DNA from: Guptibacillus hwajinpoensis
GTDB taxonomy: Bacteria; Bacillota; Bacilli; Bacillales; Guptibacillaceae
Reading direction: 5' to 3'
Assembly (NCBI RefSeq): GCF_020171785.1
Contig: NZ_JAIVAE010000010.1
Location: forward strand, 1-64,000
Length of the DNA stretch: 64,000 bases
In this document: piece after piece, positions 1 through 31,967 of the stretch
Position numbering within the stretch: position 1 is the stretch's first letter
How the letters are laid out: each line of letters opens with the position of its first letter
Notes under the pieces: model-generated
Databases searched by the model: none
What the model was told of the DNA's origin: nothing
Seen by the model: only the letters and a program-made list of their open reading frames with translations
Translations under genes and position numbers: made by a program

Positions 1-115
1 CTCACCCGTCCGCCGCTAAGATCAGGGAGCAAGCTCCCATCTCTTCGCTCGACTTGCATGTATTAGGCACGCCGCCAGCGTTCGTCCTGAGCCAGGATCA
101 AACTCTCCGATAGAA
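1..115 (-). rRNA. 16S ribosomal RNA, 5' end only
   Basis: Read on the minus strand, 85-108 gives the universal 27F region (GAGTTTGATCCTGGCTCAG), followed towards base 1 by the conserved stretch ending in a Bacillus-type V1 start. Only about 115 bases of the 5' end are in the window; the gene continues off the left edge. The mature 5' end is placed near 115 by similarity to the Bacillus start (…ATCGGAGAG). In B. subtilis an rRNA operon also follows ygxA, so the neighbourhood agrees. Confidence 0.97.
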
Positions 116-29829: not shown

Positions 29830-29991
29830 CTAACTTACCAAGACTTAGAAATGCGCTTAAAGCCGATTAAAATAATTCTTCGCTGTCTACACTCGATTAT
29901 ATAGCAACCTTTCACGATAATGGCTATACTATATAAAAACCTAAAAGCGGCTATGTCAAACATTAAAACTAATAGATAATAGGTGAATAAG

Positions 29992-31107
29992 ATGACAATT
30001 TTATTTAAGCAAGCTCGCGTCTATCCGGTTGCTTCTCCATTACTACCCTGTGCTGATGTTCTCGTAAAAGATGGTCTTATCCATCAAATATCCCCATCTA
30101 TACCTGAGGAACCTGCAATGACAGTTATTGACGGAAAAGGATATCATCTACTTCCAGGGTTTATTGATGCTCATACACATTTAGGTCTTTATGATGAAGG
30201 AACAGGCTGGGCTGGAAATGATGCAAATGAAACAGTAGAAGCCCTAACACCACACGTGAGAGCACTTGATGGTGTGAACCCGCTTGATGTCGGTTTTAAA
30301 GATGCCATCGCTTTTGGTGTCACCGCTGTTCAGGTGATGCCCGGAAGCGCGAATATTATAGGGGGCATAACAACCGTTTTAAAAACAAATGGAAAAAATG
30401 TAGAGAAAATGATTGTAAGAGAAACGGCTGGTTTAAAAATCGCTCTCGGCGAGAATCCAAAACGTGTGCACAGCCACTCAAACAATGATTCCATCACACG
30501 AATGGGGATTATGGGTTTACTTCGTGAAGCATTCTACGATGCTAGTCGCTCAAATCAAAAAGAGCATCCGCGAATTGCCCCTATTATGGCGGCACTAAAT
30601 CGAGAAATCCCAGTAAGAATTCATGCTCATCGTGCAGATGACATTCTAACAGCCGTTCGTTTCGCCCGGGAATTTAATCTCGATCTTAGAATTGAGCATT
30701 GTACAGAAGGACATCTAATCGCCGATGAACTTAGCGGACAAAACTTAAAGGTAACCGTAGGACCATCAATGACAAGACGATCTAAAATTGAACTTAAAAA
30801 TAAAACATGGGCTACTTATGGAATCTTAAATAGTCATGGAATCGAAGTGTCGATTACGACAGATCATCCGTACGTCCCGATCCAATACTTAAACATTTGT
30901 GCTGCACTTGCAGTTAGAGAAGGATTAAGTGAAGAAAAAGCCATTGAAGGCATTACCCTTAATCCCGCAAAAAGTCTTGGCGTTGACCATCGAATTGGCA
31001 GCATTGAAGTCGGAAAAGATGCCGACTTAGTACTCTGGTCCAACCATCCTTTTCAGTATGATGCTCGCCCTCTTTTAACCATGATTAACGGGGAAATTAT
31101 TCGCTAA
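29992..31107 (+). CDS. Amidohydrolase family protein (imidazolonepropionase-like)
   Basis: 371 residues from ATG 29992, seven bases after AGGTG; a GTG at 29983 overlaps that site. Metal-dependent hydrolase of the amidohydrolase superfamily: HxH in GFIDAHTHLG (about 57-66), the second His in RIHAHRADD, His in IEHCTEGH and the catalytic Asp in TTDHPYVP (about 292). Likely cytosolic, as no signal peptide is seen. Cyclic amide or peptide substrates are typical; the actual one is unknown. Confidence 0.87.
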   Translation: MTILFKQARVYPVASPLLPCADVLVKDGLIHQISPSIPEEPAMTVIDGKGYHLLPGFIDAHTHLGLYDEGTGWAGNDANETVEALTPHVRALDGVNPLDVGFKDAIAFGVTAVQVMPGSANIIGGITTVLKTNGKNVEKMIVRETAGLKIALGENPKRVHSHSNNDSITRMGIMGLLREAFYDASRSNQKEHPRIAPIMAALNREIPVRIHAHRADDILTAVRFAREFNLDLRIEHCTEGHLIADELSGQNLKVTVGPSMTRRSKIELKNKTWATYGILNSHGIEVSITTDHPYVPIQYLNICAALAVREGLSEEKAIEGITLNPAKSLGVDHRIGSIEVGKDADLVLWSNHPFQYDARPLLTMINGEIIR

Positions 31108-31256
31108 ATTACTATGGTTTTCCTGTCACGTAGAGGCTTACAAAAAGTTTACATTTTACAGAGAAAAATACGCGAAAAACTAGTATCTTTTTTTGAATAA
31201 ATCGAGTATGATACTTTTGTAATTAAAATAAAATGAACTAACAACTTCATATCTGA

Positions 31257-31325
31257 ATATGGGAAGGCAATTGGTGCGCCACCAGCAATGACTGGTCCTA
31301 GTGGGTTCGATTCCCACCCCGAATA
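31257..31325 (+). ncRNA. tRNA-like cloverleaf in the leader of the GNAT gene
   Basis: 69 bases fold as a tRNA shape: acceptor ATATGGG/CCCGAAT (one A-A mismatch, one wobble); D arm GGC/GCC with loop AATTGGTGC including the conserved GG; anticodon stem ACCAG/CTGGT with a six-base loop CAATGA; variable loop CCTA; perfect T arm GTGGG-TTCGATT-CCCAC with all invariant T-loop bases; discriminator A. No CCA is encoded, base 8 is A, and the anticodon loop is one base short, so it is unlikely to decode. It is followed by a chain of competing hairpins up to the GNAT start. Could be a degenerate tRNA gene or a regulatory tRNA mimic. Confidence 0.6.
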
Positions 31326-31381
31326 ATAATTCAACATACTATTATTCGAGGGTGGGGATTCGTCTGCCCTCGACAGGAGGG
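31308..31381 (+). promoter_or_regulatory. Candidate translational switch before the GNAT gene
   Basis: Three mutually exclusive hairpins follow or overlap the tRNA-like fold. (1) 31308-31328 pairs with 31340-31362 (about 19 pairs, 11-base loop) and uses the T-loop, 3' T-stem and acceptor strand of the tRNA-like element. (2) CGAGGG 31347-31352 pairs with CCCTCG 31367-31372. (3) CCCTC 31367-31371 pairs with GAGGG 31377-31381, hiding the AGGAGGG ribosome site of the gene starting at 31388. Pairings are seen; the switching is inferred. Confidence 0.55.
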
Positions 31382-31387
31382 AAACTC

Positions 31388-31942
31388 ATGATTAAACATC
31401 GTGACCTGTCGGAATGTCATGTGCTATTTGACTTGATGGTTGACCCAGCTGTCTTCCCATTCGTGCGTCATAAAGCAAGCTCTTACGAAGAATATTTGTT
31501 CTTAACCAAACAACTCATTGAAGCTGAGGAACAGGGGGAGCTTGTTTCTCGAACCATTCTAGATGAATGGGGTAATCCAATCGGTACAATTAATTTATAT
31601 GATATTGAACAAGAAACCGGATTTCTCGGCACCTGGATCGGAACTCCTTATCACGGTAAAGGGTATAATCAACTTGCTAAAGAAGCCTTTTTTAACGAGT
31701 TGTTTTTTAATAAGCAAATCAAAACCATTTTTATGAGAATCAACAAGGAAAACACGAGGTCGCAAAAAGCAGCTGAAAAAATTCCTTATGTTGAAAAAGC
31801 CGATGACAAATGGCCAGAAGTTTATCATAAAATCAATTCTGGAGAAAATTCATATCATTTATATGAAATCGAACGAGATAACTACCATCTTCATGTAATG
31901 CGTGAAGGACTAGAGTCTGTTGAAGTTCAAATGGAAGCATAA
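31388..31942 (+). CDS. GNAT family N-acetyltransferase (RimJ/RimL-like)
   Basis: 184 residues from ATG 31388, directly after AGGAGGGAAACTC; upstream in-frame codons run through the structured leader and are not coding. GNAT features: IGTINLYDIEQETGFLGTWIGTPYHGKGYNQLA, with the acetyl-CoA loop in YHGKGY (about 97-102), and the MRINKENTRSQKAAEK motif (about 122-137) typical of RimJ/RimL-type enzymes that acetylate amino groups. Substrate unknown. The leader with a tRNA-like fold suggests tight translational control. Confidence 0.85.
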   Translation: MIKHRDLSECHVLFDLMVDPAVFPFVRHKASSYEEYLFLTKQLIEAEEQGELVSRTILDEWGNPIGTINLYDIEQETGFLGTWIGTPYHGKGYNQLAKEAFFNELFFNKQIKTIFMRINKENTRSQKAAEKIPYVEKADDKWPEVYHKINSGENSYHLYEIERDNYHLHVMREGLESVEVQMEA

Positions 31943-31967
31943 GTTCCTTACAAAGGAACTTTTTTTA
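31941..31967 (+). terminator. Terminator of the GNAT gene
   Basis: AAGTTCCTT / AAAGGAACTTTTTTT hairpin overlapping the stop codon. Confidence 0.9.

Follow-up and report, generated by a model that had tools for sequence, protein, structure and literature searches.

To our knowledge, the yjdF riboswitch is the only tRNA-like cis-regulatory switch. Small-angle X-ray scattering, probing and translation assays are reported for its ligand-stabilised tRNA-like ON state in the available portion of the study (PMC9142559), and a later crystal study, likewise available in part, describes similar helix positions and loops without direct contact (PMC10987639). Here we analyse a 64,000-nucleotide stretch of Guptibacillus hwajinpoensis DNA (contig NZ_JAIVAE010000010.1, positions 1 to 64,000 of the forward strand; the whole stretch is termed the window below), in which a leader with a tRNA-like core precedes the gene of a 184-residue GNAT N-acetyltransferase (31388-31942, PF13302; this gene and the leader features lie on the plus strand). 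Based on comparative analysis and predicted folding, we lean towards a reading in which the conserved leader switches translation of the GNAT gene ON, likely when a small molecule stabilises the tRNA-like fold.

The likeness to yjdF is manifold. In both cases a tRNA-like cloverleaf with equivalents of the D- and T-loops resides in an mRNA leader (here at the level of secondary structure), the Shine-Dalgarno (SD) sequence is sequestered in a translational ON switch (here by prediction) and, as far as the available text on yjdF goes, acetyltransferases are among the controlled genes (PMC9142559). Each is also reminiscent of a particular tRNA, the relation reported for yjdF in the accessible text being to tRNA-Lys and the resemblance of the leader to tRNA-Gly. 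However, the leader lacks the long purine-rich J1/2 that holds the yjdF ligand site, having AA or AAA only, its T-loop is the standard TTCGATT, its gene is another one, and mostly a four-strand relay (T-arm, two strands termed M1 and M2, and SD) takes the place of the direct T-loop:SD pairing of yjdF. The yjdF model RF01764 matched none of 10 genomes, with B. subtilis matched as positive control, and at gathering score it also found nothing over 15 relatives; we do not consider the leader a yjdF member.

At gathering score, Rfam 15 yields nothing on the window leader or on the leaders of 15 relatives; the single match over these relatives, to an FMN riboswitch, lies outside the leader in L239. 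Among the matches listed for the window leader at E <= 10 are a piece of the tmRNA T-arm (E 0.0028, far below gathering score) and three others (E 6.7 to 8.4), and both the T-box (RF00230) and yjdF models are absent from them; an overlapping, weaker hit from a shared clan is not part of this listing. This agrees with a preliminary description of the locus, made from the sequence alone, which had seen neither a T-box nor any other nameable family; no Rfam class applies, but yjdF is a close functional precedent in so far as its report is available (PMC9142559). T-boxes likewise are Gram-positive leaders built around tRNA biology, whereas here the leader itself is the tRNA-like part. The thrS leader of E. 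coli is an mRNA leader that mimics tRNA at the ribosome site, where the protein product represses by binding; the logic predicted here is in contrast activation. The tRNAOther of Bacillus cereus is also a tRNA-like element within a longer RNA and without a role in translation, but it has a Trp anticodon, adjoins a pathogenicity island and, in the available text, is not described as a GNAT leader; its authors saw longer-transcript-like sequences only in the B. cereus group (PMC3399842). A literature search, in which coverage of subscription papers was small, found no description of the leader. For the terms searched, the accessible parts of two surveys of new bacterial RNAs contain no GNAT or tRNA-like motif (PMC11109978, PMC8632094), and a B. 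methanolicus transcriptome, available in part, reports leader elements identified by comparison with Rfam (PMC4342826).

Conservation and distribution of the tRNA-like core

Direct reading of the window sequence recovered all predicted elements between 31261 and 31388, with the T-loop, D-loop GG, CCCTC motif, SD and GNAT start where the preliminary description had placed them. The core (31261-31320) reads GGG-AA-GGC-AATTGGTGC-GCC-ACCAG-CAATGA-CTGGT-CCTA-GTGGG-TTCGATT-CCCAC-CCC, and the RNA of 31250-31400 is predicted to be more stable than 199 of 200 shuffles (z -3.4). Of the near-complete cloverleaf originally proposed, three arms stand: the D-arm (31266-31280; stem 31266-31268/31278-31280, loop AATTGGTGC with the conserved GG at 31273-31274), the anticodon-like arm (31281-31296; stem ACCAG/CTGGT with a 6-nucleotide loop in this species) and the T-arm (31301-31317; GTGGG at 31301-31305, CCCAC at 31313-31317, loop TTCGATT). 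The acceptor does not, being conserved solely as GGG at 31261-31263 paired with CCC at 31318-31320; bases 5' of this GGG differ among relatives and do not match the opposing strand.

The leader is widespread. A covariance model built from 17 leader sequences found it conserved across the order of the window and upstream of GNAT genes, in line with the check suggested in the preliminary description. With presence defined as a model E <= 1e-6, it occurs in 304 of 397 genomes of the order (105 of 135 genera) as a single copy per genome, except for one genome with three (G752; L253, L230 and L254), and divergent own-order leaders score as low as 67.8 bits. A DNA search with 31240-31420 retrieved it from 50 of 61 genomes (one being that of the window) and 37 of 48 genera. 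A family belonging to another order (f49) carries it in 40 of 121 genomes and 7 of 19 genera, with scores as low as 53.3 bits. Class-wide and phylum-wide, the model scores fall into two clearly separate groups: 34 places reach at least 77 bits in 398 genomes of the class and 4 places at least 83 bits in 299 genomes of the phylum, with no other above 38.2 and 37.4 bits, respectively, among the matches listed. An exact D-arm pattern scan, by which the invariance of the D-arm is partly a matter of construction, gave at least 119 stretches, 80 of which serve as named loci and include Priestia megaterium, Neobacillus, Halobacillus, Oceanobacillus, Psychrobacillus and Bacillus paralicheniformis; the scan also gave other loci, up to L209, that entered the sets of 181 loci, 151 leaders and 140 cores used below.

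The 140 distinct cores were selected by pattern (GGGA, D-loop TGG and TTCGA, with 1 to 3 A permitted between acceptor and D-stem) and hence count no pattern-breaking leaders; the divergent L255-L257 lie outside this set and were read separately, L256 having a GNAT match and no T-arm by the pattern used. Sequence comparison demonstrates that the T- and anticodon-like arms, as well as the hairpin and the M1:M2 helix described below, are conserved and covary, while D-arm and acceptor are conserved and barely vary. The T-stem is paired in 140/140 cores, with three kinds of two-sided change: GTGGG/CCCAC in 128, GTAGG/CCTAC in 6, ATGGG/CCCAT in 3, GCAGG/CCTGC in 1 and the wobble version GTGGG/CCCAT in 2. 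Altered T-stems are found in different genomes and families, GTAGG/CCTAC in f49 loci and L185, and ATGGG/CCCAT in L141 and L239/L241. All cores have the T-loop TTCGATT, its TTCGA being imposed by the pattern and the final TT not. Compensatory changes also mark the anticodon-like stem at pair 4 (AT 129, GC 7, TA 2, GT 2) and pair 5 (paired in 132 of 139), and this stem is rewritten in L257 (ACUAAC/GUUAGU, six pairs) and L255 (CUAAC/GUUAG, five pairs plus an A-G mismatch at the base). Its loop varies in length and sequence across loci, which argues against decoding. The D-stem is GGC/GCC in 138 of the 140 cores, with one compensatory GAC/GTC and one mismatched GGC/GGC. In the acceptor, GGG (140/140, imposed by the pattern) and the 3' CCC (139/140) show no covariation or compensatory change in either the 17-leader alignment or the 140 cores, and L255 and L257 do not keep it. 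The junction between acceptor and D-stem is AA in 138 cores and AAA in 2; the variable region (CCTA at 31297-31300, 4 nucleotides, consensus YCUA) is TCTA in 106 and CCTA in 27.

In terms of tRNA (RF00005) features, the leader has a T-loop of the form TTCRANN on a 5-bp stem and the D-loop GG (TTCGA and TGG being pattern-imposed); it has neither a 7-bp acceptor nor a 7-nucleotide anticodon loop, and its 3-bp acceptor runs straight into the following hairpin. By tRNA numbering, positions 8 and 48 of the core are presumably both A, which is uncommon among tRNAs, and the core may be remodelled. The best genuine-tRNA model matches are to tRNA-Gly (UCC/CCC), with an identical GTGGGTTCGATTCCCA stretch, from which the leader differs by its 3-bp acceptor, missing CCA and variable anticodon loop. 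In plain alignment Gly, Asn and Gln tRNAs score almost alike (56, 55 and 54), and descent from tRNA-Gly is only a lead. ARAGORN calls no tRNA anywhere in the window, and among 32 leaders it calls a tRNA at just two loci (L016, 1497-1568; L029, 1497-1567; one Cys, one undetermined); some genome annotations may contain false tRNAs here.

Helices predicted to compete for the ribosome site

An AT-rich hairpin (31321-31347; arms 31321-31328 and 31340-31347) abuts the acceptor and shows two-sided changes at 4 of 7 pairs in 17 sequences. The competitor of the T-arm and acceptor strand that the preliminary description had drawn as one long hairpin is present (31314-31355, where 31314-31320 face 31348 and 31350-31355), but the hairpin begins directly at 31321 and is prolonged by the competing helix in the predicted OFF state. 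The strand M1 (GAGGGTGGG, 31348-31356) would alternate between this OFF hairpin and an anti-sequestor, which also exists as proposed but is longer than the suggested CGAGGG/CCCTCG, comprising 9 bp between 31348-31356 and 31363-31371. The latter strand, M2 (TCTGCCCTC), would pair with M1 in the ON state or, through CCCTC at 31367-31371, with 31377-31381 of the SD (AGGAGGG, 31375-31381, assigned by sequence) in the OFF state. Three exclusions follow in silico, namely of the T-arm 3' strand between cloverleaf and long hairpin, of M1 between long hairpin and M2, and of M2 between M1 and SD. The predictions show what is expected of a riboswitch, conserved helices that exclude one another and act on the ribosome site, with M2:SD lacking covariation.

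Pairing was compared by a swap test, in which each element was combined with the partner element of other leaders (300 swaps, 151 leaders); relatedness among the leaders inflates it. L200, the one among 152 distinct leaders that has no hairpin, was excluded from this test and from the forced folding below, and L122 was retained in both despite its empty linker and unusual hairpin. For the M1:M2 anti-sequestor, native pairs average -12.91 kcal/mol against -11.16 kcal/mol when swapped, and 0/300 swaps were as good. For the competitor M0:M1, M0 being the T-arm 3' strand plus acceptor, again 0/300 were as good, at -12.68 against -12.53 kcal/mol, a gap that is small because M0 barely varies. As controls, M1:SD and M0:linker were equalled in 30/300 and 271/300 swaps and thus lacked a comparable effect; the control M0:SD unexpectedly reached 1/300, for which shared G/C-rich tracts are the sole explanation we can offer. 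Lineage-specific M1/M2 pairs include GGACAG/CTGTCC (L059), AGGGCAGG/CCTGCCCT (L106) and TGGGGCAG/CTGCCCCA (L187). In Psychrobacillus-type leaders (L093, L105, L157 and L135) the T-stem is GTAGG/CCTAC and M1 has TAGGA opposite TCCTA; the competitor therefore followed the change of the T-stem.

The predicted free fold of the window leader (-51.2) contains the long hairpin and a partly hidden SD, while forcing only the 5 T-stem pairs yields a best fold (-42.2) that holds the whole cloverleaf, the hairpin and M1:M2. When the cloverleaf was forced, predicted SD openness rose by more than 0.2 in 88 of the 151 leaders and fell by more than that amount in 3. In L235, the sole such leader noticed, M1 sits at the position of the SD and the T-arm strand competes directly with the SD, which the cloverleaf raises from 0.47 to 0.95 unpaired; hence with zero relays, as here, or with two, the models predict the same sign, i.e. 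that the tRNA-like fold is the ON state. L200 and L122, which are without the usual competitor, hold the cloverleaf in their minimum-energy folds. Taken in silico, these data back the logic of the preliminary description, according to which the tRNA-like fold opens the site and the helices exclude one another up to the GNAT SD.

In some leaders (L025, L052 and L056) the M2:SD hairpin is followed by a T run before the start codon and could double as a terminator. No sigma-A promoter signal above chance was found in the window or across 150 upstream stretches. We also considered a conserved N-terminal extension of the GNAT protein, as the leader lies in an open reading frame continuous with the GNAT (31301-31942), yet distinct leaders range from 102 to 181 nucleotides with lengths of every remainder modulo 3, and this possibility was therefore rejected.

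Proposed switch and competing explanations

We propose that the leader operates as follows. The nascent RNA would first form the cloverleaf, after which the hairpin would zip up and invade the T-arm as long as no effector secures the elbow. In the effector-free state M1 would be caught in the long hairpin, leaving M2 free to hide the SD (OFF). With effector, the elbow of D-loop and T-loop would hold, strand exchange would halt, M1 and M2 would pair and the ribosome site would open (ON). The effector may be a small molecule or a polycation, perhaps the substrate that the GNAT enzyme acetylates, this being the least certain step. Between a small molecule and a tRNA-binding protein, the former appears somewhat likelier: holding the fold would turn the gene ON, which is at odds with repression by its product, the features of acceptor and anticodon read by synthetases are gone, and yjdF provides a precedent. 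A more specific version is tentative and in our view rather improbable: the leader may represent a new order-wide riboswitch class, in which an aptamer made of a tRNA body, its D/T elbow of the standard kind, senses a tRNA-stabilising compound, such as a polyamine or a tRNA-directed antimicrobial, that the GNAT then acetylates.

Several observations weigh against a switch of this kind. No ligand pocket was identified, and no GNAT substrate can be named from the Pfam, NCBIfam, PDB profile and Foldseek matches. The cloverleaf costs a median of 7.2 kcal/mol relative to the best fold (151 leaders; 9.0 in the window), which tertiary contacts, left out of this figure, may be insufficient to pay. In 60 of 151 leaders forcing it shifts SD openness by 0.2 or less, and in the window the SD opens just from 0.33 to 0.39. 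M0:M1 is weak in several f49 leaders (-3.0 in L059, -4.8 in L094 and L090), where the relay is unclear. Finally, the CCCTC motif, first suggested to hide the SD, does pair with it as part of M2 in the free fold, but this sequestor is without significant covariation (-8.57 against -8.51 kcal/mol, 83/300 swaps as good), although the T- and anticodon-like stems, hairpin and anti-sequestor all show the conservation and covariation whose absence would have refuted the preliminary description; such a result is expected if the ribosome fixes the SD, but it leaves the sequestor unproven.

The strongest competitor to a small-molecule switch, a serious though improbable one, is that the core acts as a decoy for a tRNA-binding protein, be it an elbow binder, a modification enzyme, RNase P, a synthetase or the GNAT itself, which holds the cloverleaf and opens the site; the supply of free protein would then rise as tRNA becomes scarce. 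The maintained T-loop TTCGATT and D-loop GG speak for it (TTCGA and TGG being imposed by the pattern), as do the weaker model matches, which, where laid out, are tRNA-Gly genes (25/26 phylum-wide, 6/6 at chosen own-order loci), and the report, in the part of the text available, that some GNATs act on glycyl-tRNA (PMC9241777). Autoregulation through binding of the GNAT to its own leader, raised in the preliminary description, is less plausible: since the tRNA-like fold would turn the gene on, such binding would amount to positive feedback, and self-repression does not agree with this logic. Alternatively, the fold might enhance expression constitutively, through contact with the ribosome or by shielding the mRNA, with the hairpins merely tuning the level and no signal involved. 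In favour of this, tRNAs grafted before an SD boosted in vitro translation 2- to 6.3-fold according to the accessible text (PMC9142559), and L200 and L122 lack the usual competitor; we regard this as unlikely, as covariation maintains M1:M2 and, weakly, M0:M1, neither of which such an enhancer needs.

Less probable still is a processing site, at which cleavage of the leader by RNase P or RNase Z would alter its stability or translation. RNase P and RNase Z read the T-arm and D-arm, both of which the leader has, but T-arm plus acceptor amount to just 8 bp and another stem follows immediately. We give hardly any credence to a decayed tRNA gene or attachment-site relic adjoining the GNAT gene: the resemblance to tRNA-Gly and the two ARAGORN calls are outweighed by retention in 304 of 397 genomes with compensatory changes and one gene partner, and no exact D-arm match was found in viral contigs. 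Just as implausible is a T-box or other known riboswitch class overlooked by eye; a tRNA theme in a Gram-positive leader would suit it, but there is no Rfam match at gathering score on the window leader or those of 15 relatives, and neither T-box nor yjdF is among the matches listed for the window leader at E <= 10.

Gene partner and significance

A GNAT homologue lies downstream in 180 of 181 pattern-matched loci (including some genomes fetched twice), in 78 of 80 named loci, the other two holding only 53 and 136 nucleotides from the leader's first base, and in 24 of 25 further, mostly divergent loci. The exception among the latter is L253, one of the three copies in G752; the gene downstream of it is similar to the one that comes after leader and GNAT in L230 of the same genome, and a likely reading is that the GNAT was lost from a duplicated operon. 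In 15 of 16 own-order genomes without leader that were examined, no GNAT match was found at E 1e-10, and one does carry a GNAT (43% identical). Of 7 leaderless f49 genomes examined, 6 retain the GNAT, preceded by a different sequence to which the covariance model has no match. Such other sequence precedes the same GNAT in L212-L217; L212, L215 and L216 share TATGG...ATAGTT plus ATAACGTCTA, perhaps a replacement element for the tRNA-like leader.

On the GNAT protein, Pfam finds GNAT families only, and NCBIfam gives a weak match, far below cut-off, to NF040702 (isoleucine-tRNA ligase with N-acetyltransferase domain); fusions of this type might hint at a tRNA-linked role. A PDB profile search points to MccE and RimJ/RimL types, Foldseek ranks SpeG first, and a second structural comparison places FdhC, SpeG, RimL, RimJ and MccE within about three Z units.

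In the window, a terminator-like hairpin, assigned by consensus match, lies 3' of the GNAT gene (31941-31961, plus strand), and an amidohydrolase-like gene just upstream of the leader (29983-31107). Of the 80 named loci, 57 have this gene or the epimerase-like gene preceding it in the same orientation as the leader; at the f49 loci read, the neighbour genes differ. A partial 16S rRNA gene occupies the window edge (1-113, minus strand).

In conclusion, a structured leader present in about three quarters of the genomes searched in this order is without a match in Rfam 15. Its natural variants, with a T-arm that competes for the SD directly or by way of two relays, or with the usual competitor missing, would form a series in which to follow the evolution of an expression platform. 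A widespread orphan GNAT also becomes accessible to functional tests, since whatever acts as effector of the switch should point to the substrate of the enzyme. If the proposed switch is true, it would follow yjdF as the second instance in which a tRNA fold serves as a cis-regulatory sensor, and should a tRNA-stabilising compound be what is sensed, the tRNA fold would serve these bacteria as a chemical alarm.
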